A DNA stretch of 28,869 nt from positions 1-28,869 of IMG/VR virus record IMGVR_UViG_3300029309_000248. One strand, given 5' to 3'. This document shows positions 3,001 to 20,744 of the stretch, in pieces (the stretch's first letter is position 1; the number at the start of each line of letters is the position of its first letter). This DNA comes from a virus. The notes under the pieces were generated by a model. It did not search any database. It worked only from the letters and a program-made list of their open reading frames with translations, and was not told the DNA's origin. Position numbers and translations under genes: made by a program.

Positions 3001-5194
3001 CTGTATATTTTTCCTGATCTCTAAGCGCTTGAAGTTCTTCTAGTTTAAGCTCTGAGTTTTTTCCACCAGCTTCTAAAACACCAAAACCAACTCCAATAGT
3101 TCTTTTTAATTGTTTTGCACTCCATTTTGTTATATATTTTTTAGAAGCAGCTTTTGCTACACCAACATAAGAAAAAGACAGAGCTAAACTAGGAGCATTA
3201 TTTGCAACAAGATCAGATACAGCATCACCTAAATTATCCATAGTCATGTCTTTAAACTTCATAGGTTGTGCATAAAGGCCTTGACTTGTCTTAGCAACCG
3301 CATCTCTTACTAAAACAGTATCGTGTAATTGTTTTTGACTTACTAAACCTGAATAACTACCTAATGTATCCATTAAAAGCACAGATTCCATAGCAACATT
3401 AAGAAATGAATTACTTATTTTTTCAAAAAAACCATATTTCATTTGTAAAGCATTTATTGCCATAGTAGCACTCTCTACTTTTGGAATATTTTTGCTAAAA
3501 ACATCTATTTTTCTATACAAATCATTTGCCTCAACTACAAGTTTGTTGTATTTATCTATGTCTTCTTGTGAAGAGTTTTCATCTACGTCTCCTAATTTAT
3601 CAAGCTGATCTGTTATTGATTTGCTTTCAAATTCAAGATCTTGTTGTTTATTTATTAAATATTTGTTTAAAACATCAGCAGCTTCTCTACCTGCTAAAGC
3701 TTTTGCACCACCCATTTTTAATATTACAGCGTAGTCTTCAGGATTATTAGGATCTAAACCTTTTGGTATATAATCAAATCCAGACTTTCTTGATTTTCTA
3801 TCAGTTTTTACAGCTACTCTGTATAACTCTTTATAAAAAGCATCTGTTTCGCTATCGTCTTGAAAAATTGTGTAAAGATCTTCTTCAAGATTAAAAATCA
3901 TATTTTTTTGTCTATTATCTTCTCGATCTCTAAAATTACTTACTTTGTTAGCTTCTAACTGGTATTTTTGAACTTTTCTTTCTTGAAGTTTAGCATAAGC
4001 CTCTTCTTGTAATTCAGCGGGTAACTCATTTATTTTTTGAGGAACATAATCATAACCTTTATCAAGAAGTGCACCTTCATATTCTTTTAAAACTTCAATT
4101 TCAAGAGCTTCTTCATCAACCATGTTTTCTGCTTTTCTTATAGCCATACCGTCTTCACGTGCATTACTAGCAGCCCAGTTTTTAAATTTATTAAATTGTA
4201 CTAAACCATCGTTTCCATCAAAATTTGTGCTAAAAGTTTTCTTTTGTCCGTTAGGAGCTATAGCAACAACTTGATTATACCCGGCAAATTTTTTGTGAAA
4301 ACTAAAACCAAAAGTTTTAAAACTATTAGTTAAAAACTTAACAGTATTATCTGTGCTTTGATTAAAATGATAACCATCACCTTTAACAGATTTTATTTGT
4401 TTTTGTGTTTTTTCTTTTCTTATTCTTGTTTCTTTTGTTATTTCTGTGTATAAACTTGCGTAGTTTTCTGACTCTCTATATTCTTTTTCTAATTCAGCAA
4501 ACTTTTGTAAATGTTTATTCATTGCTTTTAACATTACTTCTCGAGCCCACTCAGAACCACCATTTTTAAACCTTACACGAAAACCTTCACCATCATTATT
4601 TCCAAAGTTTTCTATAGCTCTAAGGTCTTTTTGTCTACCACTATCTTCAAGCCAAGCTTTCATACCAGCTGGTATTTTAGTTTTATCAAACACAACACCT
4701 ACTCTTGCGGGTATAATACCCCAATCATCATTTACAGCATCATAAAAATTAAAATAACCATAATACGATTCATATTTTTTTGCTAAACTTGATGTGCTTG
4801 TAAAGTCTATACCACCAGCAGCATCCCAAGCTTCATTACCATATTTTTTAGAATAATAATTACCTTGTAACCTTTTGTTAAATTTAATGTCGTATGCGTC
4901 TTTTTTCTTTTGTTCTTCTTCAGATAGTTCTTTTTCTTTTTCAACTTCAACCTCTTCTTCAACTTCAACTTCTTCTGTTACAGTTTGAGTTTCGTACAAA
5001 GGTAAACCCATAATTTCTGCAAAGTGTTGGCCACTGCCATTATAACCGTTTTGAGCCATAAATTTATAAACTTTAACAAAATCATCTTCACTGTCTTTCA
5101 TTAAGTTATAAAAATTATCAGCAGTACCATTATAGCCAGTAGAAGCCATATAGTTATACACTTTATTAAAATCTTCTGTATAGTTTTTTTCCAT
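1..5194 (-). CDS. giant putative internal virion/injection protein with HExxH zincin motif (partial, 3' end outside window)
   Basis: The frame is open from an ATG at 5194 to the window edge, giving at least 1731 residues without a stop. The start follows the upstream gene by 14 nt behind an A/T-rich leader. Seen: two copies of a roughly 25-residue motif (residues 8-32 and 38-62, core GYNG); a Glu/Val/Lys-rich linker (about 71-97); long Lys/Glu-rich helical stretches; a hydrophobic Ala/Ser-rich patch near 660-680; an amphipathic segment around GAVEWGEEALTQ (from 823); and HEMGH at 1166-1170 (bases 1685-1699). A Glu in VGEFIDAG (residue 1246) is a candidate third metal ligand. HExxH preceded by a hydrophobic residue and followed by S/A-x-D is typical of zincin peptidase domains in giant phage proteins. 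Its place after the internal-virion-type genes suggests a protein ejected with the DNA. It could instead be a multidomain polyvalent protein; no RNA polymerase or transglycosylase signature was recognised. The C-terminus is not visible. Confidence 0.85.
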   Translation of the reverse strand, partial: MEKNYTEDFNKVYNYMASTGYNGTADNFYNLMKDSEDDFVKVYKFMAQNGYNGSGQHFAEIMGLPLYETQTVTEEVEVEEEVEVEKEKELSEEEQKKKDAYDIKFNKRLQGNYYSKKYGNEAWDAAGGIDFTSTSSLAKKYESYYGYFNFYDAVNDDWGIIPARVGVVFDKTKIPAGMKAWLEDSGRQKDLRAIENFGNNDGEGFRVRFKNGGSEWAREVMLKAMNKHLQKFAELEKEYRESENYASLYTEITKETRIRKEKTQKQIKSVKGDGYHFNQSTDNTVKFLTNSFKTFGFSFHKKFAGYNQVVAIAPNGQKKTFSTNFDGNDGLVQFNKFKNWAASNAREDGMAIRKAENMVDEEALEIEVLKEYEGALLDKGYDYVPQKINELPAELQEEAYAKLQERKVQKYQLEANKVSNFRDREDNRQKNMIFNLEEDLYTIFQDDSETDAFYKELYRVAVKTDRKSRKSGFDYIPKGLDPNNPEDYAVILKMGGAKALAGREAADVLNKYLINKQQDLEFESKSITDQLDKLGDVDENSSQEDIDKYNKLVVEANDLYRKIDVFSKNIPKVESATMAINALQMKYGFFEKISNSFLNVAMESVLLMDTLGSYSGLVSQKQLHDTVLVRDAVAKTSQGLYAQPMKFKDMTMDNLGDAVSDLVANNAPSLALSFSYVGVAKAASKKYITKWSAKQLKRTIGVGFGVLEAGGKNSELKLEELQALRDQEKYTEIKESIEKRGGNYTKNQDYQNALKELERTEDILSIPEYLKAFTSIAYGATAMFAERLGTMKVIDDLYNVSKITGKAAFKNTLRTSLLYGKMGAVEWGEEALTQISHNLLDIAVLKEDKSLIDGIDADFNVNVLFSSMALQSPSMVGNVYNTIRSEFSTFQERRANAADLLELANLNLEIQELNKKPGRDSFFKKQNLRDEMKNIMKKAAFRDAFTFADMANMTQGEIAEVFELNKKARKIKQDAFEAGVLDVVKGKRDKDKVQKLKDELNTIDSRISNLRKKPSERVKQKLDDLVGKDNATVTDRYFVGKYKQALRLMEAMDGKETKEYKTREEAIARLDELYGVKDGQIDVNGNAVKYLKKQKNSKTKKNYTQQEAEKIAQERYNESIRGVNRGVNGINTEFAENIMIEDNVFSNIYNSSNDIAKSINAYSPIHEMGHSYDAFTGLFKVKDGKVLNYTKTSFNSVEKLLQQRKQEGSVTKKDYNILKSRLDQYRNGIKKTGAVNVKEFVQIVGEFIDAGVLNKNEASTMSNIKIALNNAFRSVPGLGKHAWLFKLKDASDIIAYVRNFQKKAVAGTLQLAPEDEIVDTPDRVKFSEGELITSINNLIPDNIKTREQYIEFTQDRRKFPAVFNATLDNGVISNYVKLKTKSREEFEEAIDSVRMRLTNFNPEAKRKTDSTQKITFAEFIFANTNFAKLDAAKALATKAAKEEQSIDTKEAREVADVDDTTTELDNELADDRVKKINVLQIGKTAGKSQDIIDGVKVKDGDTFKEVIDNNEAIVANLIFGVPGQKVSDPKKNLTYSNKILDPTTGREVSKGQKGIPSPSEAKSIQDFFADIKTANSFIRILPKTNVTEQDADINKLGENIEVSRETLGRGIGLPNRILEYFYDKKFKPDGKRARSKGKTSQVALWQLKDQFINPSNETIIKFQRDLGITEGQQVNELPAGDKRSVIGQLLKGSAKTFSQQVSLSAAQRKLEAKTKQAKDAKKEAEVERLKQ
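5009..5173 (-). repeat. tandem 30-residue N-terminal repeat in the giant protein
   Basis: Residues 8-32 and 38-62 of the giant protein align without gaps: both begin Asp-Phe-x-Lys-Val-Tyr, contain Met-Ala-x-x-Gly-Tyr-Asn-Gly, and end with an aromatic residue followed three to four positions later by Met. Period is 30 codons (90 bp). The DNA copies are diverged, so this is an old protein-level duplication rather than a recent tandem DNA repeat. It may be a small helical docking motif at the very start of the protein; function is unknown. Confidence 0.75.
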
Positions 5195-7345: not shown

Positions 7346-7756
7346 TTATAATTTTTTGAATAATTCGTAAGATTCTTTTTTGTTATTACCCCAACCTAAA
7401 CCTTCGTGTATATCTATTAAATGCTTATTAGAGCAAACTGTAAACAAATAGCTATATCCTAGTTTTTTACAAGTTTTTTCTATTTTTTTAATTAATAGCT
7501 TTATTATTGATCTTCTATCTTTTTCTTTGTATTTTGGGTTTGATACAACCCAAGCTAACCACGTTACTTTTGAATTTGTTTCATATGTAAATCCACAAGC
7601 TATAGGTATATTATTTTTTTCAATCATATAACCTCCAACGCCATTTTCTGGTAAAAAATCTTTATATACTACTGTATTCCACCACCACTTCCACCAACCA
7701 CAAATAACTTTATAGTCTTCTTCTGTAAGACGTCTAAATACTAACTCTTCTTTCAT
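7346..7756 (-). CDS. GNAT-family N-acetyltransferase-like protein, 136 aa
   Basis: Predicted to be a compact GNAT domain. The N-terminus FRRLTEEDY is a typical beta1-alpha1 start; a Trp cluster (WWKWWW, 21-26) and LPENGVGGYM (35-44) follow. Central strands end in LAWVVSNP (67-74), then a Lys/Arg-rich helix (77-99), then GYSYLFTVCSN (100-110) and a C-terminal HEGLGW (117-122) typical of the last GNAT strands. The family transfers an acetyl group from acetyl-CoA to an amine, either small molecules or protein N-termini/lysines. The usual acetyl-CoA loop Arg/Gln-x-x-Gly-x-Gly/Ala is replaced by KYKEKDRRS, lacking Gly, so catalysis is uncertain. I recall very similar short GNATs in the virion-gene blocks of marine phages, which suggests modification of a virion component or host target. 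The substrate is unknown. Confidence 0.8.
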   Translation of the reverse strand: MKEELVFRRLTEEDYKVICGWWKWWWNTVVYKDFLPENGVGGYMIEKNNIPIACGFTYETNSKVTWLAWVVSNPKYKEKDRRSIIKLLIKKIEKTCKKLGYSYLFTVCSNKHLIDIHEGLGWGNNKKESYELFKKL

Positions 7757-7797: not shown

Positions 7798-8157
7798 TTA
7801 TTTACTACTAGGCGCTACATCTGAGCTTATAGCAAAAAGTTCTGCATAATCTGTAGAATTATTTTTTAATTTAAACTCAGCATAGTAACCTAACACGCTA
7901 GCATTGTTTGCTGTTTTGTTTTTTTGAAACATTAAAAAATCACCTTGAGTTGGCGCTACGCTTGAGTTGCTTGTGTCTACTTCTATGCTACTTTTGTTTA
8001 TAACTAAAACAGTGCCTACTAATAAAGGCGTATTACCATAAGAAAAAACAGGTTGACCACTACCTCCTTCAAATACACCAGTAGTTTGAACCGTATATAC
8101 ATAATCACCTACTTGTAAAGAATCGTTTTTTATTTCAGAGTTTAATGTTATTATCAT
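7798..8157 (-). CDS. small beta-rich structural protein, 119 aa
   Basis: Predicted as an all-beta protein: strands such as VGDYVYTVQTT (16-26) and LLVGTVLVINKSSIEVD (45-61), a GDFLMFQKN segment (72-80), then GYYAEFKLKNNS (90-101) and a Ser-Ser-Lys C-terminus. The pattern 'aspartate-phenylalanine-x-methionine-phenylalanine ... GYYAE-x-K ... AELF' matches small virion-cluster proteins I remember from marine T4-like and podovirus genomes that are usually annotated as hypothetical or structural. No enzyme motif, signal peptide or membrane helix. It lies 10 nt after the 427-residue beta-rich gene and 41 nt before the GNAT gene. Likely a decoration or tail-accessory protein, judged from context and fold type only. 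Confidence 0.75.
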   Translation of the reverse strand: MIITLNSEIKNDSLQVGDYVYTVQTTGVFEGGSGQPVFSYGNTPLLVGTVLVINKSSIEVDTSNSSVAPTQGDFLMFQKNKTANNASVLGYYAEFKLKNNSTDYAELFAISSDVAPSSK

Positions 8158-8167
8158 TTATTTATTT

Positions 8168-9451
8168 TTAAGAAGCTGTACCAACTGTTATTAAGTTATC
8201 TAAATCTATATTAATAATTTTATTTGTTGATGGCTGCTGAGTAACCTCATAAGTAAATTTAAAACTTATTTTTTGATTACTACCAACAAAAGTTAACTGT
8301 GATCCTGCTGTAACGCCAGTTTGATCTAAAGTCATAACTATACTACCAGCTGTAGAGCTAGCAGATACGCTTGCTACCGTGTTAGTCGTAGCATTATTAA
8401 CGTTTGCACCAAATATAGTAACATGATTACCTCCAGATATACCATATGTACCATTTAAATCTATTGTTGTGCTATTAGAATCAGTTCTAACTGTTTTTGT
8501 TAGTTTTATTGGTGTAATAACAAAATTGCTAAACTTTACAGCCATACCTTGAGTTAAATTTATTACTTTTTGGCCTATAGCTCTTATTGTTAAAGTAATA
8601 CCATCGCTAAAAGTTTGTGCGCTACTAATTGTTAATGTTTTACTTGCTGTGTCTATAGCTGTTATAGTTGGAGTACCACTTAAACTACCACTGCTAACAC
8701 CTACTATTGTCATATTAACACCTATGTCGGTTAAATCGTCAACTTTAACTTTAAGCCCTCCATTAATATCAGATGGAGAAACCGCACCGTCAACAGTTTC
8801 AGTTGTTTCAAAAAACACATCTGTTTTTTCATCAAAAGCAGTTTTTGTTTGTCGTAAACCAAAACCTTTTGCATCTGATTCAGTATTTTCTATATCAAAA
8901 GTAACTACCTTACTTGTTGTAGATGTAGTAGCTGCAGATGCTATTCTAGTATCAGTTGGTAGTGTTTTGTAAAAACTAGTATCAGAAGAGGTTGGTGCAA
9001 TAGTTATAGTAGTATCACTTGTTTGTAATATAGTTTTACTTATAACATGGTTATTTGAAATTACTGAGTCTGATATTCTTGTTTTTAAAGCTTCATTTGT
9101 TATTAACTTTACAATATAACTAGTTACTCCAGAAGGAAAATTAATAGCTCTATTAAAAGAACCACCAGATAACTCAACATATAAGTTTGTATTTGTATTA
9201 AAAGCAAGTTGAAACTCATTAGTCTCAAAATTATAAAATTTATCTAAAACACTACTAGAACTTGACTTTTGAACAACTTGAATATAAAACTTACAATCAT
9301 TACTACTTGTTATTTGTATCGATCTACTAACACCTGTTGTAGGCATTTCGCTATTATCTATAACAAAAGATTCTATAATACCAATAGAGTCAGACTCTAA
9401 AACGTTAATATCTTGAGATGAATCTTGTATGTGATTTATGTTATGTGCCAT
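8168..9451 (-). CDS. beta-rich Ig-like virion structural protein, 427 aa
   Basis: The start is placed at MAHNINHIQD (base 9451), because this ATG has an A-rich leader and begins 10 nt after the stop of the stabilization gene. An alternative ATG 39 codons upstream lies inside that gene and would add a hydrophobic out-of-frame extension. Composition is Ser/Thr/Ile/Val-rich with no Trp, typical of extended beta proteins. Residues about 1-120 form one beta domain; residues about 232-291 and 326-390 look like two related Ig-like units. Each has a Thr-Ile-Val-Gly/Thr-Ile-Phe-Gly strand, a Thr-x-Thr turn region, and a closing Thr-Leu-Thr-Ile or Thr-Phe-Val-Gly strand. Such units decorate capsids, tails and fibres and often contact cell-surface sugars. 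Location directly after the stabilization protein suggests a tail or capsid accessory role. No named family is claimed. Confidence 0.8.
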   Translation of the reverse strand: MAHNINHIQDSSQDINVLESDSIGIIESFVIDNSEMPTTGVSRSIQITSSNDCKFYIQVVQKSSSSSVLDKFYNFETNEFQLAFNTNTNLYVELSGGSFNRAINFPSGVTSYIVKLITNEALKTRISDSVISNNHVISKTILQTSDTTITIAPTSSDTSFYKTLPTDTRIASAATTSTTSKVVTFDIENTESDAKGFGLRQTKTAFDEKTDVFFETTETVDGAVSPSDINGGLKVKVDDLTDIGVNMTIVGVSSGSLSGTPTITAIDTASKTLTISSAQTFSDGITLTIRAIGQKVINLTQGMAVKFSNFVITPIKLTKTVRTDSNSTTIDLNGTYGISGGNHVTIFGANVNNATTNTVASVSASSTAGSIVMTLDQTGVTAGSQLTFVGSNQKISFKFTYEVTQQPSTNKIINIDLDNLITVGTAS

Positions 9452-9461
9452 TTTTATTTTT

Positions 9462-12400
9462 TTAATAAGTTCCACCTCCGCCTCCGCTGCTTCCAGTATT
9501 ACTACTACCAGTACTAACGCTAGTGCTTGTAGTACTAGTATCAACGCTACTTGCTTCAGTGTTACCACTGTCGCTTATATTTGCTTCAACGCTACCATTT
9601 GGTACAATATTATTAGACTCTACAGCAACGTCTGTGTCTACAACACCATCACTAACAAAACCTAAATTTGAAGCGTTAACACCTGAAACAGTACCAAGAC
9701 CTTGAAAACTAAATTCTGAAGTTAATATTTCTGCGTTTGGATTACCTTTTATATAATTAAACCACTTACCTTCTTTTTCTATAAACTCTTTTATATTACC
9801 AGTTTGTTTATCTGTAGTTATATAATCAATATACCAACCAGATTTTTCTGTAATATTATAAGGTTTAATAGTATCTTTTTTATAACTATCACTAAACTTA
9901 GTTACTCTAGACTGTGTTCCTTCGTAACTTAAAGTATTAAACGTTTTTACTAAAGATGGCTCTTGGTTAAAAATACCAGTTACAGAAGACTCTGTTATAG
10001 TGCTAATGTCTTGATCATAAAACTGATTTCTAGTAGAATTTGCATGATGTTGATATAATCTACCGTTGTTAAAAGTATAATACTGTTTTGCTAAGCTAAT
10101 TCCGTTTTCTGGTGTAAAAGATTTAAAACTAATCCAACCTTTATTTCTTTCGCTATAAGTAACTGTTTGAGGCTCAAACAAAGGATAAACTTGTTTCATA
10201 GAAATATTATCTATTGTAAAAGTAGTACCAGGCTCTAATATTTCTACAACAAATGTTGATATAAGATCTCCTGGTTCTGCCGTTTGGTCTCCAATAGTAT
10301 TAAACACGTAGTTACTTAAATGATTAACTTCACTGTCAAATGTTAAAACAGAACCTGACATACCAGCATCAAACTGTATTGTATCAGTTCTAAAACCATT
10401 TTTATTAATATCATTTATAAAATAATAAACTCTAAACGAGCCAGAATCTATAGTATAATTAAACTTCACTCTAAATTTATCTCCTAATTTTATATCTTTA
10501 TTTATAGCTTGTTGTATACTATAACTAGTTTCTGCATTATTAACAGATATTACACCTTGATCAAAGGCTATAGGTACAGGAAAAGCTAGAGTGTCAAAGT
10601 CAAAAGTCCAAGCGTCTGCTGTTCCACCTGTAACTACACTAGATTCATCAATTAAAGAAAAATCATCTAAAGTACAGTTTAATAAAACAGGATTTGTGTT
10701 AGGATTACTAGCGAAATAATAATTTTTATTATGTATTCTTATAGAGTTTTGCAAACTACTAGAGCTACCAATACCAGTTAAAATATCACCGTTACCATAT
10801 ACAACATAATCACCGTTAACATCTTTTTTCTTTAAAATAATATTTGAAACTTGACCATCTAAATTAAAATCAGCTTTATATTCTCCGCTATCATTAATCT
10901 CAATATCTATAAAATAATAACCAGGTGTACCACTGTCATCTACGTAATAAATAGAATTAACGTCTGTTTCTATACTACCTCTAAGTGTAATTCTAAGTGT
11001 ATCTCCACTGTAACCTGTAACTCTAAAAGTAAAGGTATAACCATTTGTAGTTGTTTGAAAATTCCAAGGGTTTGTAACTAAATTAAAATCTTGAAAAAGT
11101 ATTTGACTAGGCGCAGTAGCGTTAAAAAATGTTATTGAATCACTATCTGCATATAATCTTCTTTTTGAAATACTATTTACAACTAGCTCACTATCGTGTC
11201 CACCATAATTTTCTGGTAAAAAAGAATTTGGCTGTGCTGGCACAGACCAAGTAGTAGTTGCGTTTGGAAAAGTCCACTCGTTAGCGCTACCACCAACAAC
11301 AGTTTGAGTAATATCTTTAACGTTAATCAGCCTTACTTCACCAACAAAATCAAAAAAGTTTATTTTCAAATGTCCAACATTATTGACAACATTTAAACTA
11401 TTAGCATCTACTTGAACTACAGCCCTTAAATTTACAGCACCAGTAGGTGGTGTGTTCCAATAATCAGGAGTACTAGAGTTTGCAGGATCTAAAATATCAC
11501 CAGCATGTAAAAAATTATATTGTGGCCATTGATCAGTATCTAATAGAAAAAAGCCTCTATCTGAACCTACAGTTACGTTACTAGGCAATGTGTTTAGCGT
11601 ACCAAAACTACCATAAGGCATAGTAGAACCATGAAATTCAGTAGAATCAAAATAAGCAATACCATTATAAGCATTAGCATCTATTAAATTTCTAACAGAT
11701 ATACCTTTATAAGAGCTAGCTGACTGACTAGTAAATGTAGGGTTTATTAAAGTAACATCTACTAACAACCATTTATTAGTTGTTTTTAACTCATCAAACT
11801 CAACAGCAGTAGATATAGAGCTACTAGCACCAGGTGAATCTACATATATACTACTTTCTTGATGATTAAGTGTTATTTCAGTACTGTTAAGCGTTGTGTT
11901 AATACTACTGTTAAGATAAGGTGTATATACCGCGTTTAGAAACTCATCATTATGAAAAGCAGCCATATAAGATCCTATAGTGTTAAAAACACTAAGATCT
12001 GCGGCTGTAGCTACACCAGGATCAGGCCAAGTATATGTTGTTACTCCGTCTGCCGCTATAGCGCTACTAGTTCCAGGTGAAGGGTTTTCAGGGCCAAACT
12101 CTGTAAAACCTGTGTTGTTAAAAGCATTATATGCAGGCTGCATAGTAGCACCTGTTGCGGGTGATAAAACCCAATGGCCATTATAAGTCATATAATGACT
12201 TACTTCACCCCAAGCTGGAACTTCAGAAGAAGGTATTGCGTCAATACTAGGTGTTCCAGTTTGACCTAAATTTCTTGGTGTTTGTATTTTTTGTATTTTA
12301 CTTAACTTAACCTTATTAATAACAAAAAGTCCTGTAGGTTCGGAGCCGTAAGAACCACTAGTACCCAGTGTACTAACATTTATTTGTTGAATTTTTATAC

Positions 12401-15400
12401 CAACGTTATTAATAACAACTTCTTCAAATGTACCAGGCGCAGTATTGTCAGTAGTTAGTTTATAACGTCCTTTAAGTCTATAGTGAGACGCTGTTGTTTT
12501 ATCGGTTGAGTTATCAGAAGCTACTCTACAACTCATGCCTACATTACTCCCTTCTTTTACAAACCTATGTTTTGCAGTACCCGACGCATATCTTAAATCT
12601 TTCGTAACTATTGTGGTACCAGCAGTAACAGAATTAGTATCAACAACAGAACGGTGTTTTCCTAAAAATCCATTTGGAGAACTAAAATGCCTATATACAT
12701 TTGTTGGTGGTGTAAATTCGTATATTTTATCAATTACAAGTCCATTTGAGGTATTAACAGCAGATAATGGTCCTTGATTAAACATAGCGTTAGGAACTGC
12801 TGGATTTTGAAGTAATCCAAATATATTAAAAATTTTGCTATCGCTAACAGGTACACTACCATCCATTAAAGTTACTTCAAACTCATATTTATCATCACTA
12901 TAAGAACTATCATCAGAAAGGTGTGGTAGCGCTATTTCTATTTCAAAAGCAATTTCTTCTCCTGCAAAACAGGTTGTATTTGTAGCATTACTGTAATCAG
13001 TGCCAGCAATGTTTTCAGAGTCATTAACCCAATTTAAAACATCGCCTTCAACATCGTCGTCAGGCATTGTACCCGATTCATGACTATAAGGAAGTTTAAC
13101 ATGAGGATTGTTTGGAATTACATTTGTTGGATATCCAGATCCAAATGTTTTACACACTAAACCAAAAGGCGCAGTATTATTAAGACCCCAAGTAAGATCT
13201 AAGTCACTAACGTTAAGAGCAAAAACACCAACATATGTGCTTTTAGCAATAGGTTGCGGGTTTAAAACACCACTAATAGCTGTCGTATTTGATGAAGCTG
13301 AAGCTTGACGGTTGGCAAGAGTGTAGTTACCTGAGTTGTAATAACTACCACCAGCAGAAGTACTTGCGTAAAAACATTCTGGAGAATAATAAAGATACTG
13401 ATCATTTAAATTGTTATTTAAGTCTGTATTGTTATTAGAACCTTCAAAAGGTATTCTACTATTATTTATGGGTTGAGAACATTTAAACTCTTCGTTAACA
13501 ATAGTTTCTTCAGACTGAGTACCAAAAATACCTAAATTTGTACCACTAGGAAGTGTTGTACCGTCAACGCTTACATCGTGATAGCCACTTGTATTGTAAA
13601 CCGTAAAAACCGTGTTACTATAAGGCCAAGTTGGTGTACCAGGATCATAAGCTTGAAAATAACCTTCTGGTATTGCTGGGTATAAAGTTACTTTAGTAGT
13701 GCCATACAAATGTCTTTGACTATAATTTAACAAATGATTATTTAACAAATCACTAGTAACCTGCGCTTGATTATAACTTGTTGGGAAAAAGCTTCCGTTT
13801 TGAATAAGATTTTCTGGTGGAGTAGTAATGTTTACTACTTGTTGGCCTTCACTTACATCTGAATTAATTATTAAATTTTCAGAAAAATCTTTTTTTAACG
13901 TTAAATTATATTCTTTTTTATATTCATCATAAGTACCTATTAGCTCGTTTGGTAAAACTAAATTATCTCTAAACCAGTCGCGCATGCCAGCATCTGATAT
14001 AGGTGTTAAGCCATCCATTGATAATCTTAATACAGCACCTCTTTGTTTATCTGTAAAATAAGCTCTATAAGATTCTTTAGCAAAAGACTCTGGGTTTTTA
14101 GATATACCATAGTCTCCTACAAAAGGTGTTGCGTCTCCTAAAACTCTGTCTGTAGCTATTAACTGGGGATTACCATCAGCATTAAATAAAGTATCTTTAC
14201 CAGCTACAATATTAACAACTCTATCTTCACAGAAAGCAACTAAACCAACTCTTCTTTGAAATAACTTTTGTATACTACCATAAGTTGGGTTTAAATCTTT
14301 TGTTATTTTTTCAGCTTGTATAAATTGATTTAACTCGTTTATACTAGTGTCTGGATTATATATACCAGAATAAATTAAACCACTTGTTCTATTTTCTTCT
14401 GTATATGTAGTATCTATAGTTGAAGAAACAATAGGTCCGTTAGTTAGTTTAGTTAAGTTAAAACCATCTTTTATTCTATTAGACTCTAAGCCATTACCAA
14501 AAGAAAAACAGTTATACCAACTTAATCCAGCTTCTAAATCTTTACCAACTATAGGACTTAAAACAAATTTATTTTTTAAAGCAGAAGGAGAAGTACCACC
14601 TACACCTTGGTTATTGTCAGGATCAGAAGCTTGAGCAGCTAATCTACCAACAGTATAACTACCGTCGTTTCTAGTAAATTTAAATTTATAACCTGAATAA
14701 TCTATTTCTTTATATGTGCTTGTAGAATTATCAAAGTAAGAATAAGCAAAACCTTCAGTAACTTCAAACTCAGTTGAACTTAACCATCTTTTTAAAATAT
14801 TCTTTTTTAAATCTTTGTTTTGCTTTCTAACTTTTATATCTGTAAGATAATCACCTTCACTATTATCATCTATTATTTCAACAACACAACCAACCGGTGC
14901 AAAAAACTCTTTTGTTTGATCTGTTATTGTTGTAGGTATAGGATTACTTGCTTCGTGATAAATTTCTATATCAATAGATTCTTTTGGCTCTGTTTCCCAT
15001 ATAATAGGTTTTTGAGCATCTAATTCTATAAAGCTACTAGCTTTTTCTACAAACTGTATTCTAGTTGAAGTGTCAAGATCTATATTACTACCATCTACAG
15101 GGTTAAATGTAGAAACTCTAGGATCTTTATCAAGCTCTAATATATAAACAACTCTTCTGTTATTTGCTCTTCCAAAGTCTTGTATTCTGTTTTTAAAATC
15201 TAAAAGTTTAACAGCATCACCGTTTGGAGTAGAAACGCCTATAGTTTTAGCCCATCTTTGCCCCATGTTAGAAACACTATTTAAACCAACAGAGTCTAAA
15301 TGATTAGTACTGCCATCATATGTTCTTGTATAATGCCAAGAAGTATGATTATATATTTTTTTAACTGATTTTCTTAATATAGTATAAACAGTAGCATCAG

Positions 15401-18400
15401 TATCACCTTCAAACTTAAATTTATTACCAGGTTCTAAATTATCAATAAACTCTTGAATTTTACCACCCTCATCTTCTGGCCAAGCTGGGTTCCATTGGTT
15501 TTCATGTCTAGATCTATAGTTTTCATCATATCCAAAACTATTTGGTACACCAGGACCAGGTGGATCTCTATAATCATCGTCAAAAAACTTACCCTCCATT
15601 AATATAGCCGGTACATTAGCACCAACAGTAGTTGCTGTATTACCAAAACCATAACCATCTGGATCTGTAATCACACCACCTCCCCATATACCTTGTAATC
15701 CTTTTGCAACTGCGTTTTGACCAAATAAATCATCACCCATACCAGTTACACTATCTACTAAGTCTTCACCTGGAGCTAAGAAAGAAAGATGCATATAAAA
15801 CTTACCTTCTTTTTGACCATAAGTATTATCAATATTAAAATGAGATCTGTACATACCAGAACCAGTAGAATCTTCTGTTTTCCATTTTCTAATACCAGGT
15901 TTATCTCCACTTAAAGGTGTAGAGTCATCACCAACATGATAACTCGTTGTAGTAACAATACCTTCTAAACCATTAACACCTTTTGAAATATAATCATAAG
16001 ATCCATCTTCTAAAACAGAATCAACTCTATTTTTAGCAAAAAACTTCCAGCCTTTATGTACAACAATACCATCAACACCTTTTTCGTCTTGTGGACCTTC
16101 TTCTAAAGTGTTAGCAACCCACTCTGGATTAGGTGGATATGAAGAGTGTATTCCAACCCATGTTTTACCGCTGTTTTTAGCATAGTTATTATCTGATATT
16201 TGACCTGCTTTCATAAACATTGCGTCTATAAAAAACTTTCTACCTATAAACTGTTCTAATTCACCCCAGTTAGTTTCGTTACCTGTTATTGCAACACCAT
16301 GAATTTCTTCTGGACTATTGTTACCACCTGAAGGAACATTATAGTTATAAGTAGTATTTACAATTCCACTATTTTGATTGTGACTAGAGTATATTCTATC
16401 TGCAGCGTAAGAAACATCTTGCCTTGCTATCCAAACATATTGTTTAAGTAAAGAGTTATCATCTAATATATTGTCATATATAATTGGATCCGTAATTACT
16501 TTAACAAAAAACTTACCTGAAAAAAGCTCTGTATCTTTTTCTTTTCTTCTTTCTATTTGTATTGTTAAATCATCATCTAATGTAGTTGCGCTAATATTAG
16601 TGCTACCTGTTGATATAACGTGATCTTCTAATAATATTTTTTTATCTAAAGTTATATGTATGTTTCCGCTTGTTTGTCTAGTAGAATCTATTATTCTATA
16701 TTTATTAGAAGTTAATATGTTACCGTTAGATTCTGTTCTAAACCATGAAATATACATTTGTCCTTGAAGATAATCTCTGTTAGAATTTTCATCAGCATAA
16801 CCTTTTGCTCCGCTACTAATAGGTGCGTTTTTGCCATCGTTTAACCACTTACTACCTATTAATCTCAAGTGTCTTTTATTAAGAGTAGGTCTATTAGAAC
16901 TACTAGCAAACAACTCACTATTTAAAAAATCTACTCCAATAGTTGTTTGATCAGCATCTCCAAGTAAAGCATATTCAAACTTAACGTGATCAGGAGCATT
17001 ATCTTGTATGTCAAGAATTTTAAATCTATTTTTTTCAGTTACTTTAGATTCTCCAGTACCTATTTTCTTTTTTAATATTAAATAATCGTCAACAGTAACT
17101 TTGTTTCTTTCAGAAGAAGGAAACGAAAGCCATATATGATGCCTTGTTTCTTTTTTATAAGTAGACATATCCGCTGGTAAATAAGCCTTTTCCATTACTA
17201 AGTTGTAATATTCACCAGATGTTTCTTTTATATAATATTTAATATATTCTGCAAAGCTAGGTGGATCTTGTTGTAGTTTAGCTTCTATTTGATATGATTG
17301 TGTAGAAGATAAAATACCTTCACTGTTCTTCCAAGGTACTGTTATAGCGCTTTTATTAGAAGTAAAAACTGGAGTTTCTCTACCGTGCTTATCACCAAAA
17401 ACAACGCCTAACTGATAGTTTCTTTGAGATTTTATAGAAGGAAGAGCGCAGTCATCAAAATTAGTTAGCGGTAGGTTGTATTGTTTTCTAGGCTTATAAT
17501 CAGCTAGTAAGTTTGGTATTTTTGTATTAGAAGTATAACCTTGAACATAGTTTGCATAAACAATTCGATTACCAGTAACTTCTTGTGCTAGAGCTTTTTT
17601 AGGAACAGCATCCCAAGGTCTTAATATTTGGTTTTCTGGTAAAATATGACTAATGTTTTCAGACTCAACAATATATCTACCTTTTATTAAACCACCATAA
17701 ATAGATGGTCTATATTTAGGAACGTTGCTTAATCTTCTAACAGAGCCAACATCCTGGTTTTGACTCAAACCTACAGAATACCATTCTTCATCATTTCTGT
17801 TTATAGTTGCTATTGAGTATATAGCTGGTGAGTTTTCACTTTTATATATTATATCTATAGATTTTACTTCTTCATCTAAGTCAGGTTCAATAAAATCTGA
17901 TAATTCAATAGAGTCTATAAAGTTTGTCATAGATGTATTATAAGGCTCTTGTGCATTATATACAAAATCTAAACTTTTATTTTTATGATCAGGGTTAAAT
18001 ATTACATCCGTAAAAGGAGCAAAAGGAGAGTATTCGTTGTCGTTGTACTTGTATCTATACGAAAATCTTGGAAACACACTTTCAAACAAAGATTCTTTAT
18101 TAGGATTATCTGTAGTGTTTATTTTTACATTTAGTTTGTTTTTAGGCGCAGGCTTTATAACTAAAATGTTTTTTTCTTTTATATCAACAGGTATGCTTTC
18201 GCCAAATAAAATATCACCAATTTTAAACGTTCTATTAACGTCAGTAAAACTCATTTGGCTAGTGGCATTGTCATCTAAACGAGCGTGCATACCATTGTCG
18301 TTGGTTCCGTTATTCCATATCTTTAAACTAACATTACCTAAAAAAACACCGTCTCTATAATGCCTTAATATATTGCCTTCACTATTATGGTTTACTGAAT

Positions 18401-19073
18401 AACTAAAAAGTTTATCAAGTTGATCTTTGTGAAAATAAAAATATCTACCTTCTGTTATACCATCTATAAACGTTGTTCTCATACCTGCTGGACTCAACGT
18501 AGTGCCAGTATCATCTTGGTACAAACCTACTTCTTCAATAGTAAAACCATCAAAACTTCCAAAATCACTTATTAGTTGAGTGTGAGTAGATAAGTTTACA
18601 GTACCTTTTTTACAAGTATTTATATTTATTTTTCTAGGTTCGTTAAAACCGTCAGTCCAAAACAATAAATCATCTATTATATTTATACCAGTAATTATTT
18701 TTTCTGGAAATTTTAAAACCGCATCTGGAGTGTTTATTTTAGTATCAACTATAACAGGTATAACGCCAAAGTCTTCTGAGTATTCAATTATAGCTTCAAA
18801 GCTAGCACCTTGATAACTAAAATCTCTTTTTATAAACCAATATAATCTATTTGTTTTTTCATCAGCAACAGCACCAATACACTTACAGTTTGCAGGTACT
18901 ATGTTTTCTTTTGATAAGTTACCTAATATATTTTGAACAGTGCCTACATCAGAACCATCAGAAGTGCTTATCTGAATATTCATTGCATCTCTATACTCGC
19001 CGTTAGGCAAGATTCTTTCGTCAAGATCCTTGTTCATTCTACCTTGTAAAAAGGTATTTTTAATTTCTGCCAT
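9462..19073 (-). CDS. giant stabilization protein (P22 gp10-like annotation) with receptor-binding-type insertions, 3203 aa
   Basis: Residues 4-52 carry the signature of phage 'stabilization protein': KNTFLQGRMNKDLDERILP, then PNGEYRDAMNIQ and VGTVQNILGN. This family is thought to form a beta-propeller-rich part of the neck/tail that seals packaged DNA. Residues about 1-1726 hold the propeller-like part and end near FTDKQRGAVLRLSMDGL and YNLTL (1722-1726). The family's conserved end resumes at TVTYSERNKGWISFKSF (2970 on) with the motif GKWFNYIKG near 3120. Between them lie about 1240 residues of beta-rich modules ending in LFVINKVKLSK (about 2248), VRLINVKDI (about 2579), LDDFSL (about 2801) and FTIDNISMK (about 2950). 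This ending resembles that of carbohydrate-binding jelly-rolls. The C-terminus is Ser/Thr/Gly-rich. It starts 3 nt after the stop of the preceding gene. Family assignment is from remembered marine phage homologues; sugar binding is inference. Confidence 0.85.
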   Translation of the reverse strand: MAEIKNTFLQGRMNKDLDERILPNGEYRDAMNIQISTSDGSDVGTVQNILGNLSKENIVPANCKCIGAVADEKTNRLYWFIKRDFSYQGASFEAIIEYSEDFGVIPVIVDTKINTPDAVLKFPEKIITGINIIDDLLFWTDGFNEPRKININTCKKGTVNLSTHTQLISDFGSFDGFTIEEVGLYQDDTGTTLSPAGMRTTFIDGITEGRYFYFHKDQLDKLFSYSVNHNSEGNILRHYRDGVFLGNVSLKIWNNGTNDNGMHARLDDNATSQMSFTDVNRTFKIGDILFGESIPVDIKEKNILVIKPAPKNKLNVKINTTDNPNKESLFESVFPRFSYRYKYNDNEYSPFAPFTDVIFNPDHKNKSLDFVYNAQEPYNTSMTNFIDSIELSDFIEPDLDEEVKSIDIIYKSENSPAIYSIATINRNDEEWYSVGLSQNQDVGSVRRLSNVPKYRPSIYGGLIKGRYIVESENISHILPENQILRPWDAVPKKALAQEVTGNRIVYANYVQGYTSNTKIPNLLADYKPRKQYNLPLTNFDDCALPSIKSQRNYQLGVVFGDKHGRETPVFTSNKSAITVPWKNSEGILSSTQSYQIEAKLQQDPPSFAEYIKYYIKETSGEYYNLVMEKAYLPADMSTYKKETRHHIWLSFPSSERNKVTVDDYLILKKKIGTGESKVTEKNRFKILDIQDNAPDHVKFEYALLGDADQTTIGVDFLNSELFASSSNRPTLNKRHLRLIGSKWLNDGKNAPISSGAKGYADENSNRDYLQGQMYISWFRTESNGNILTSNKYRIIDSTRQTSGNIHITLDKKILLEDHVISTGSTNISATTLDDDLTIQIERRKEKDTELFSGKFFVKVITDPIIYDNILDDNSLLKQYVWIARQDVSYAADRIYSSHNQNSGIVNTTYNYNVPSGGNNSPEEIHGVAITGNETNWGELEQFIGRKFFIDAMFMKAGQISDNNYAKNSGKTWVGIHSSYPPNPEWVANTLEEGPQDEKGVDGIVVHKGWKFFAKNRVDSVLEDGSYDYISKGVNGLEGIVTTTSYHVGDDSTPLSGDKPGIRKWKTEDSTGSGMYRSHFNIDNTYGQKEGKFYMHLSFLAPGEDLVDSVTGMGDDLFGQNAVAKGLQGIWGGGVITDPDGYGFGNTATTVGANVPAILMEGKFFDDDYRDPPGPGVPNSFGYDENYRSRHENQWNPAWPEDEGGKIQEFIDNLEPGNKFKFEGDTDATVYTILRKSVKKIYNHTSWHYTRTYDGSTNHLDSVGLNSVSNMGQRWAKTIGVSTPNGDAVKLLDFKNRIQDFGRANNRRVVYILELDKDPRVSTFNPVDGSNIDLDTSTRIQFVEKASSFIELDAQKPIIWETEPKESIDIEIYHEASNPIPTTITDQTKEFFAPVGCVVEIIDDNSEGDYLTDIKVRKQNKDLKKNILKRWLSSTEFEVTEGFAYSYFDNSTSTYKEIDYSGYKFKFTRNDGSYTVGRLAAQASDPDNNQGVGGTSPSALKNKFVLSPIVGKDLEAGLSWYNCFSFGNGLESNRIKDGFNLTKLTNGPIVSSTIDTTYTEENRTSGLIYSGIYNPDTSINELNQFIQAEKITKDLNPTYGSIQKLFQRRVGLVAFCEDRVVNIVAGKDTLFNADGNPQLIATDRVLGDATPFVGDYGISKNPESFAKESYRAYFTDKQRGAVLRLSMDGLTPISDAGMRDWFRDNLVLPNELIGTYDEYKKEYNLTLKKDFSENLIINSDVSEGQQVVNITTPPENLIQNGSFFPTSYNQAQVTSDLLNNHLLNYSQRHLYGTTKVTLYPAIPEGYFQAYDPGTPTWPYSNTVFTVYNTSGYHDVSVDGTTLPSGTNLGIFGTQSEETIVNEEFKCSQPINNSRIPFEGSNNNTDLNNNLNDQYLYYSPECFYASTSAGGSYYNSGNYTLANRQASASSNTTAISGVLNPQPIAKSTYVGVFALNVSDLDLTWGLNNTAPFGLVCKTFGSGYPTNVIPNNPHVKLPYSHESGTMPDDDVEGDVLNWVNDSENIAGTDYSNATNTTCFAGEEIAFEIEIALPHLSDDSSYSDDKYEFEVTLMDGSVPVSDSKIFNIFGLLQNPAVPNAMFNQGPLSAVNTSNGLVIDKIYEFTPPTNVYRHFSSPNGFLGKHRSVVDTNSVTAGTTIVTKDLRYASGTAKHRFVKEGSNVGMSCRVASDNSTDKTTASHYRLKGRYKLTTDNTAPGTFEEVVINNVGIKIQQINVSTLGTSGSYGSEPTGLFVINKVKLSKIQKIQTPRNLGQTGTPSIDAIPSSEVPAWGEVSHYMTYNGHWVLSPATGATMQPAYNAFNNTGFTEFGPENPSPGTSSAIAADGVTTYTWPDPGVATAADLSVFNTIGSYMAAFHNDEFLNAVYTPYLNSSINTTLNSTEITLNHQESSIYVDSPGASSSISTAVEFDELKTTNKWLLVDVTLINPTFTSQSASSYKGISVRNLIDANAYNGIAYFDSTEFHGSTMPYGSFGTLNTLPSNVTVGSDRGFFLLDTDQWPQYNFLHAGDILDPANSSTPDYWNTPPTGAVNLRAVVQVDANSLNVVNNVGHLKINFFDFVGEVRLINVKDITQTVVGGSANEWTFPNATTTWSVPAQPNSFLPENYGGHDSELVVNSISKRRLYADSDSITFFNATAPSQILFQDFNLVTNPWNFQTTTNGYTFTFRVTGYSGDTLRITLRGSIETDVNSIYYVDDSGTPGYYFIDIEINDSGEYKADFNLDGQVSNIILKKKDVNGDYVVYGNGDILTGIGSSSSLQNSIRIHNKNYYFASNPNTNPVLLNCTLDDFSLIDESSVVTGGTADAWTFDFDTLAFPVPIAFDQGVISVNNAETSYSIQQAINKDIKLGDKFRVKFNYTIDSGSFRVYYFINDINKNGFRTDTIQFDAGMSGSVLTFDSEVNHLSNYVFNTIGDQTAEPGDLISTFVVEILEPGTTFTIDNISMKQVYPLFEPQTVTYSERNKGWISFKSFTPENGISLAKQYYTFNNGRLYQHHANSTRNQFYDQDISTITESSVTGIFNQEPSLVKTFNTLSYEGTQSRVTKFSDSYKKDTIKPYNITEKSGWYIDYITTDKQTGNIKEFIEKEGKWFNYIKGNPNAEILTSEFSFQGLGTVSGVNASNLGFVSDGVVDTDVAVESNNIVPNGSVEANISDSGNTEASSVDTSTTSTSVSTGSSNTGSSGGGGGTY

Positions 19074-19076
19074 AAA

Positions 19077-20744
19077 TTAGTGTTTTATATGCTTAGACTT
19101 ACCTCTAAGTATTTGAGTTAATTCTTCTAATTTAATATTCGATAATCTTAGTTTTGCTTGTCTTATAGCAGCAAACTTTTCTCTTTTAAGTCTAGGAACT
19201 AACTGTTGTGTCATTATTTGACTAGAAGCTATACCGTGTAATATATATCTATACATGGCTTCTTCTGCAAATTTATGAACTTGCATTTCTTCTTCTGTGC
19301 CTAAACTATCGCTTATATAATCTAATATCACAGTTTGTCCGGAAATATTAGAGCTAAAATGTATTTTTCCTCTTAGTTCATCTATATAAAAAGAACCGTT
19401 TATTTGAGCGTGAGAAGGTTCTAAACCATATCTTTCTCCTTCGTATGGCCAGTAAACTTCATCTTCATAATCTTTGTTTTGTACTTCGCTAGGCGTTACA
19501 GATTTAAAGTTAGTCCAAGTAGATGAGTTTCCTTCCGCATCAACTTCTTCTAAACTATCGTTTTGACCTGGTACAATTACAGAAACAAAATCAACTGCGT
19601 TTACTTGATGAGTATTAAACGTAGAGGCACTAGGTAATGGTTGTGTAGTAGCTCCGTTTAAAGGAACTGTAATTTCAGGAGTTGAAACATCATTGTCGTG
19701 GTCGTATGTATTTGTAACAGTTGTTACAGCGTTTGAAGTCCAAGGAGAATAACTTTGTATGTAAACCCAAATATCATCATAAGCACTAACGTCAATTGAC
19801 TCTATTTCTTTTTGACTTGTTGTACCATCTGACCACTCTAAATATCCTAATTCATAATTACTAGCAACGTTATTTGGTGTAATATTATTACCTCCAATAC
19901 GAGTGTTTGTTGCTGGTCTTAACACTCCATCTTCATCTGGCCAACCAATAGACGGATCAGTGTAAGTAATACCAACTCTAACAACGCCAAATTCACAAAC
20001 AGTTCTTGTTTCGGTGCCACCAAGACCATCGTCAAAAGTTCCTGTTTGTTTAGCTCCAGAAGTAGCTGTAGATTTTAAATTTATAAAGCTTGCGTTTTTT
20101 ACATTTATTTTTTGCCAAGCACCATATGCATTACTACCGCCTGTTACACCAAAACCGTTATTCCAAAGTTGGCTAAAATTAAGCTCGCCACTTGAAACAC
20201 TTATAATGTCATTAATATAATTAGCATAAAACTTACCACCGCTTGTTTCTCTAAAACTACTCCAAGCACTACTCCTTGCTACTCTAGAGACATTCCAAGT
20301 ATCAGTAAGCTCAACATCAAACTCTGGGTTTTTAACGTTATTTCCTTCTTCGCCGAAGAAATAACTACCGTTATCATTCTGTTTTATTTCAAAAGGATTA
20401 TTAGTATGTTTAGTAGGATACAAAACATGTTTTATACCGGAATCATCTACATGAGATATTTTAGTGTAGTTAACATAGTCATGTGGTAAAATCATCTGCA
20501 GAGAAGCAGGTAATTCAATTTGTTGTGACTTTATAGATTTAAAAGTATCAAACGATAGTTCTGCCAAAGCTCTTTGAGCAAAAAAAGCAACGTCTGTTCT
20601 ACTAGCGCCTTTAATTAATTTTCCATCGCCAACATAAACAACCATAAATTGTTTTATTATATCGTTTAAAGATACAAACTGATAGTTACCATAATTATCT
20701 CCTTGATAATATTGGTTTTGAGTAGTTCCGTCTAGTAATGCCAT
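19077..20744 (-). CDS. head-tail connector-type structural protein with beta-domain insertion, 555 aa
   Basis: The N-terminal part (SLNDIIKQFMVVYVGDGKLI, 25-44; LSFDTFKSIKSQQIELP, 63-79; LPHDYVNYTKI, 86-96) and the C-terminal part (GERYGL, 436-441; INGSFYIDELRGKIHFSS, 448-465; YISDSLGTEEEMQVHKFAEE, 476-495; LRLSNIKLEELTQILRGKSK, 532-551) match a conserved marine-podovirus virion protein that I remember as roughly 300 residues. It lies between the small adaptor and the stabilization protein, the position of a tail-tube or portal-ring adaptor. Residues about 138-405 appear to be an insertion: a Cys-poor beta-rich region with NPEFDVELTDTW (139-150) at its start, like a jelly-roll carbohydrate-binding module. 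The helical C-terminus would dock to the neighbouring ring. The gene is separated by only 3 nt from both neighbours. The connector role is inferred from position and family; the insertion from remembered homologue length. Confidence 0.8.
   Translation of the reverse strand: MALLDGTTQNQYYQGDNYGNYQFVSLNDIIKQFMVVYVGDGKLIKGASRTDVAFFAQRALAELSFDTFKSIKSQQIELPASLQMILPHDYVNYTKISHVDDSGIKHVLYPTKHTNNPFEIKQNDNGSYFFGEEGNNVKNPEFDVELTDTWNVSRVARSSAWSSFRETSGGKFYANYINDIISVSSGELNFSQLWNNGFGVTGGSNAYGAWQKINVKNASFINLKSTATSGAKQTGTFDDGLGGTETRTVCEFGVVRVGITYTDPSIGWPDEDGVLRPATNTRIGGNNITPNNVASNYELGYLEWSDGTTSQKEIESIDVSAYDDIWVYIQSYSPWTSNAVTTVTNTYDHDNDVSTPEITVPLNGATTQPLPSASTFNTHQVNAVDFVSVIVPGQNDSLEEVDAEGNSSTWTNFKSVTPSEVQNKDYEDEVYWPYEGERYGLEPSHAQINGSFYIDELRGKIHFSSNISGQTVILDYISDSLGTEEEMQVHKFAEEAMYRYILHGIASSQIMTQQLVPRLKREKFAAIRQAKLRLSNIKLEELTQILRGKSKHIKH

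Follow-up and report, generated by a model that had tools for sequence, protein, structure and literature searches.

A hypervariable insert with predicted CBM-like folds in a crAss-type tail muzzle, probably a host-surface adhesin

Introduction

The muzzle of crAss001, gp44 (1,371 aa; PDB 7qok, 7qol, 8ckb; PF25731/PF25729), sits at the tail tip (PMC10172136), and this tip has been proposed to touch the cell and start the opening of the gate (PMC10172136, PMC10136315). The large extra parts of gp44 (IG1, IG2 and the crass domain) all lie before residue 1021, with published limits of 318-1021 for IG2 and the crass domain, and crassvirus muzzles vary in length through insertions in the IG2 and crass regions (PMC10172136). 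Tail-associated tandems of beta-sandwich domains have also been described in crAssphage, namely the BACON arrays, in which single domains undergo duplication and horizontal transfer (PMC6949934). Both insertions that alter muzzle length and tail-linked arrays of carbohydrate-binding-type domains are already known. Host-recognition parts diversify fast as well, as is seen in the DGR-diversified receptor-binding proteins of crAss-like phages (PMC11054128, PMC12386605). How crAss-type phages recognize their hosts, and how this recognition opens the muzzle gate, is the question on which the present insert bears.

We analyzed a stretch of 28,869 bases from an IMG/VR virus record (the window), whose main genes are all on the minus strand, as are all features located below. 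The closest cultured relatives found, Cellulophaga phage phi38:1 and Flavobacterium phage elemo, share its gene order of portal, capsid, ring and muzzle. Their muzzles, gp97 and gp25, respectively, carry the same conserved blocks that flank a large insert in the window but do not have the insert itself. The literature search, which left most subscription journals and preprints outside its reach, returned no CBM-like jelly-roll array placed inside a muzzle, at a propeller hairpin and with module swapping.

The carrier protein and its gene context

The insert is carried by a 3,203-aa ORF (9462-19073, minus strand) that matches PHROG_14478, a virion structural protein family (E 1.2e-120), phrog_18548 (E 3e-14) and the Pfam family PF25729, crAss_MUZ_C (28.9 bits, above the cut-off of 27). 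A relative without the insert, L030, matches PF25731, crAss_MUZ (E 2.9e-19), and a profile of insertless muzzles aligns with the C-terminal propeller region of crAss001 gp44 (hhalign E 7.6e-8). The neighbors of the ORF are portal, capsid and ring-type proteins (PHROG matches to portal and head/ring-type families), a neighborhood like that of gp44. The earlier note had spoken of a stabilization protein at the neck or base of the tail. The family matches, the gp44 alignment and the gene order instead identify the carrier as a homologue of the crAss-type muzzle, a protein of the tail tip.

The conserved core of this muzzle (residues 1-1726; 13896-19073) ends in YNLTL, and its last 357 residues define the set used for comparison: 80 viral loci out of a 458-locus set, 49-71% identical to the window over this stretch before the insert. 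After the insert, the block at residues 2970-3203 (9462-10166) continues the propeller region, with crAss_MUZ_C at 3014-3111. The very C-terminal end is rich in Gly, Ser and Thr (SVSTGSSNTGSSGGGGGTY; 9462-9540).

A single insertion site

Residues 1727-2969 (1,243 residues; 10167-13895, minus strand) form the insert, bracketed by YNLTL (1722-1726) and TVTYSERNKGWISFKSF (2970-2986). These are exactly the limits at which a discrete insert had been proposed from the window alone, along with the expectation that the two blocks would be nearly adjacent in shorter homologues. Indeed, the gap between them is 0-26 aa in eight of the 80 loci (L019, L027, L030, L031, L032, L069, L071 and L074), and they are adjacent in the phi38:1 and elemo muzzles too. 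Complete inserts, counted where both flanking blocks are present on the locus, occur in 58 of the 80 loci and in the window; these 59 muzzles have 654-1,393 aa between the blocks (median 1,135). In every case the join is identical and directly follows YNLTL, with YDxYxxxYNLTL before it and T(V/L/I)S(Y/F)xExxKGWxSFKSF after it. Since the same breakpoints are empty in eight loci and in phi38:1 and elemo and filled in 59 muzzles, the insertion has a single fixed site, and the insert is carried by most of the clade.

A linker resembling IPxxxVPAW or IPxxxIPAWxEV (residues ~2272-2290; 12204-12260) could be aligned in nearly all inserts, which suggests that they most likely share a common ancestry. 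The core tree, in which phi38:1 and elemo are on very long branches, requires the insert to have been gained or lost several times, and well-supported branches force at least four changes of the "none" label. A pattern search of the collection with the N-terminal part of the insert gave no match. The modules might have moved to another gene in the insertless relatives; on their partial contigs, however, no relocated module turned up, and the last two modules (D3-D4, described below) were not found elsewhere. The insert is thus dispensable somewhere. Most of it (11001-14000) has a somewhat higher GC content, 0.33-0.37, and an AT skew less negative than most of the window.

In the profile alignment of the insertless muzzles, the site falls between FTYKDH and CLCYSE of gp44, at about residue 1199-1201. 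With the IG2 and crass domain of gp44 ending at 1021, the site must belong to the C-terminal propeller part. The insert was also considered as an expanded part of the gp44 crass domain, and this was rejected because D3-D4 have no detectable homology to gp44 (E 0.45). Its position differs from that of the extra parts of gp44, and it represents a second muzzle insertion point besides the crass and IG2 regions known so far. From the order of the strands (GTYDEYKK, EYNLTL, TVTYSE, GWISFKSF), the site is probably the B-C hairpin of a propeller blade. In propellers, B-C hairpins and inter-blade loops share one face. In crAss001 gp44, IG1 exits from the loop that links blade 2 to blade 3, beneath the propeller on its distal face; by this topology, the insert would therefore be on the distal face as well.

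Modules and predicted folds

Three modules of the insert were modeled with confidence. D2 (residues ~2290-2590; 11304-12206), D3 (~2591-2812; 10638-11303) and D4 (~2813-2966; 10176-10637) were predicted by AlphaFold2 from residues 2262-2990 together with 43 relatives, giving three beta-sandwiches at a pLDDT of 77 and a pTM of 0.72. Foldseek searches of the PDB with this model returned many CBM jelly-rolls with a probability of 1.00, among them CBM4 (1ulo, TMt 0.60; 1gui, TMt 0.55), CBM29 (1w8t, TMt 0.59; 1gwm, TMt 0.56), CBM16 (3oea, TMt 0.56) and a tandem CBM22 (4xup); query-normalized TM-scores are low because the tandem domains were searched as one chain. In a viral library, tail-fiber and CBM-cenC-labeled phage proteins were among the matches. 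The models therefore support at least three discrete jelly-rolls of the CBM4/16/22/29 type; the earlier note had compared the insert with CBM4/9-type jelly-rolls.

This relationship is one of fold. Identity to CBM4, CBM16, CBM22 and CBM29 is 10-14%, and no CBM match appeared at the sequence level: Pfam gave no CBM family, and no family at all at E<=0.1, for the window's insert, no CBM family for 44 relatives, and a PDB profile search with the insert gave no match. One relative matches the HpiC1-like family, which has a CBM-like fold, at 4e-4. We consequently refer to D2-D4, predicted folds on a phage muzzle, as CBM-like and not as members of a CBM family. In contrast to the BACON domains, which are Ig-like and reside in a separate tail-associated protein, they are jelly-rolls inside the muzzle. 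D3 and D4 are duplicates by profile comparison (hhalign probability 96.7, E 3.4e-10), while homology of D2 to them is not clear. A GG(x)nW motif marks the start of each, GGSANEW within 2592-2602 for D3 and GGTADAW within 2813-2824 for D4, and D4 is the best conserved module of the insert.

The part before these modules is less well defined. It consists of an N-terminal segment (residues ~1727-1860; 13494-13895; pLDDT mostly <50) with a conserved NLIxNSxxxxG (profile in 68 loci), and of D1 (~1861-2265; 12279-13493), which is beta-rich and the part most often swapped. The model of residues 1722-2290 is of low confidence (pLDDT 59), and no PDB match below E 0.1 was obtained for it. Of the at least four jelly-rolls originally suggested, the three in D2-D4 therefore stand, while the first, D1, is a low-confidence model. 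All four closing strands that the earlier note had picked out lie in or largely within the last long strand of their unit: LFVINKVKLSK of D1 (2249-2259, in predicted strand 2249-2265), VRLINVKDI of D2 (2580-2588, against strand 2570-2587), LDDFSL of D3 (2802-2807, in 2798-2815) and FTIDNISMK of D4 (2952-2960, in 2950-2964). The two suggested opening strands did not hold up, as NLIQNGSFF (1755) is in a strandless region with pLDDT<50 and NLVTNPWNF (2664) is in the central part of the third unit, between two strands.

Variation and module exchange

In many pairs of near-identical phages, no part of the muzzle diverges more than the insert. The core and insert are 90% and 37% identical in L023/L053, 87% and 38% in L003/L004, and 94% and about 52-53% in L062/L066. 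The neighboring virion genes of L062/L066 and of L061/L062, whose inserts are 66% identical, are mostly 78-100% identical, and in several pairs the insert ranks last or close to last in conservation among the virion segments. This is not universal: a few close pairs, such as L067/L075 (84% vs 84%), have an insert that is no more divergent than their core.

The differences are often confined to single modules. In L042/L043, with a core of ~100% identity, the inserts are near-identical up to residue ~80, then differ over one unit (mostly 30-75% identical) and return to 90-100%. In L061/L062, most differences fall in the final third of the insert, and identity beyond it is again 90-100%. L050 and L055 are missing nearly all or most of the N-terminal half of the insert. 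L038 and L066 have a nucleotide identity of ~0.92 over the first half of the insert, and the similarity of one insert module exceeds that of the core; at identical residues, the same codon is used in 80% of cases in the insert compared with 63% in the core. Such a codon pattern calls for recombination and not selection alone. These alignments indicate that the insert is hypervariable and that single modules are swapped between related phages, as would be expected of a host-recognition part.

Variation driven by a DGR, with the insert as its target, was rejected: no reverse transcriptase was found on the 15 related contigs searched (partial contigs), and the window has no high-identity repeat pair (TR/VR). 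Unlike the DGR systems of other crAss-like phages, the inserts of this clade vary by module exchange and divergence.

Proposed function

An insert that has a fixed position on the gate protein of the tail tip, carries tandem folds of a sugar-binding type, is hypervariable, exchanges its modules and is optional fits a modular host-surface adhesin that forms part of the muzzle itself, a reading to which we assign a probability of roughly 0.6. The CBM-like jelly-rolls D2-D4 would be arranged in series, preceded by the fast-evolving, beta-rich D1, on a chain that leaves and re-enters a hairpin of the C-terminal propeller region, probably the distal-face B-C hairpin. Were the muzzle a hexamer like that of crAss001, the exit channel would be ringed by about six copies of the insert. 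The modules may bind glycans or glycoproteins on the surface of the host, presumed to belong to the Bacteroidota from the hosts of phi38:1, elemo and crAss001; a search of bacterial genomes for relatives that could give a clue to the host found none. Binding would bring the muzzle gate against the cell and possibly help to trigger its opening, and specificity would be changed by exchange or divergence of single modules with the muzzle core remaining fixed.

Jelly-rolls also act as spacers or assembly parts, and together with Ig-like folds they are common as spacers in phage tails. The insert could accordingly be structural or decorative, lengthening the tip or docking the tail fibers or the downstream ~427-aa protein, with its variation reflecting the relaxed constraint of a surface loop. 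The comparatively good conservation of the final module D4 and the missing CBM assignment at the sequence level agree with this. Relaxed constraint, however, predicts neither clean swaps with a codon similarity above that of the core (L038/L066) nor the complete absence of the insert in some relatives, and we regard this explanation as unlikely. Slightly less likely still, the insert may bind free or environmental glycans or mucus, providing a loose adhesion that enriches the phage near its hosts, with the infection receptor bound by tail fibers. Many polysaccharides are ligands of CBM folds, some relatives do without the insert, and crAss001 has separate fibers on its tail barrel (PMC10172136), all of which would be compatible with such a role. 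However, the insert is on the gate-bearing muzzle and not on the capsid or fibers, and the divergence between near-identical phages resembles an arms race.

An enzyme in the N-terminal half (the N-terminal segment and D1), for example a capsule depolymerase that D2-D4 would serve as binding modules, would account for ~540 residues without a confident fold and for the usual company of CBMs, which is that of glycoside-active enzymes. Yet this half had no Pfam, PHROG or PDB match in the window and none that was convincing among 41 relatives; catalytic folds tend to be conserved, whereas no other part of the insert is as variable as this half, and L050/L055 are without nearly all of it. We consider an enzyme highly improbable.

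A stronger form of the adhesin reading is that the clade uses the muzzle itself for primary receptor binding, with swappable jelly-rolls on a propeller hairpin that read the host glycan and couple binding mechanically to gate opening. This we put forward only tentatively, as the less probable case. If true, the adhesin and the gate would be merged in one polypeptide. An exchangeable CBM-like adhesin at a single hairpin of the gate protein would, in addition, offer a defined sequence for testing host specificity.

Neighboring genes

A 136-aa ORF (7346-7756; phrog_17252) has by eye the look of a GNAT-type acetyltransferase; many relatives retain it within the virion gene block, where its conservation is often among the highest, and others lack it. 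In phi38:1 and elemo the C-terminal domain is within the muzzle, whereas the window encodes a counterpart separately, as a 119-aa ORF (7798-8157) whose family profile matches elemo gp25 at 1381-1468 (E 1.2e-16) and phi38:1 gp97 at 1245-1321 (E 6e-12), and which matches phrog_18548 at 165-237. Between the muzzle and this ORF is a ~427-aa gene (8168-9451), and every relative with this region on its locus shows the same split arrangement. The true start of the ~427-aa gene is most likely near the ATG of MAHNINHIQD and not at the GTG at 9568. A programmed frameshift from the muzzle into the downstream 466-codon ORF was rejected, as the relatives' gene mostly starts 2-20 nt past the muzzle stop; the two ORFs most likely overlap in the window because the start of the second was set too far upstream. 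On the other side of the muzzle, the ring-type protein (19077-20744) has 555 aa in the window and 444-745 aa in relatives, compared with 283-286 aa in phi38:1 and elemo, so that roughly 200-250 extra residues are present there too.
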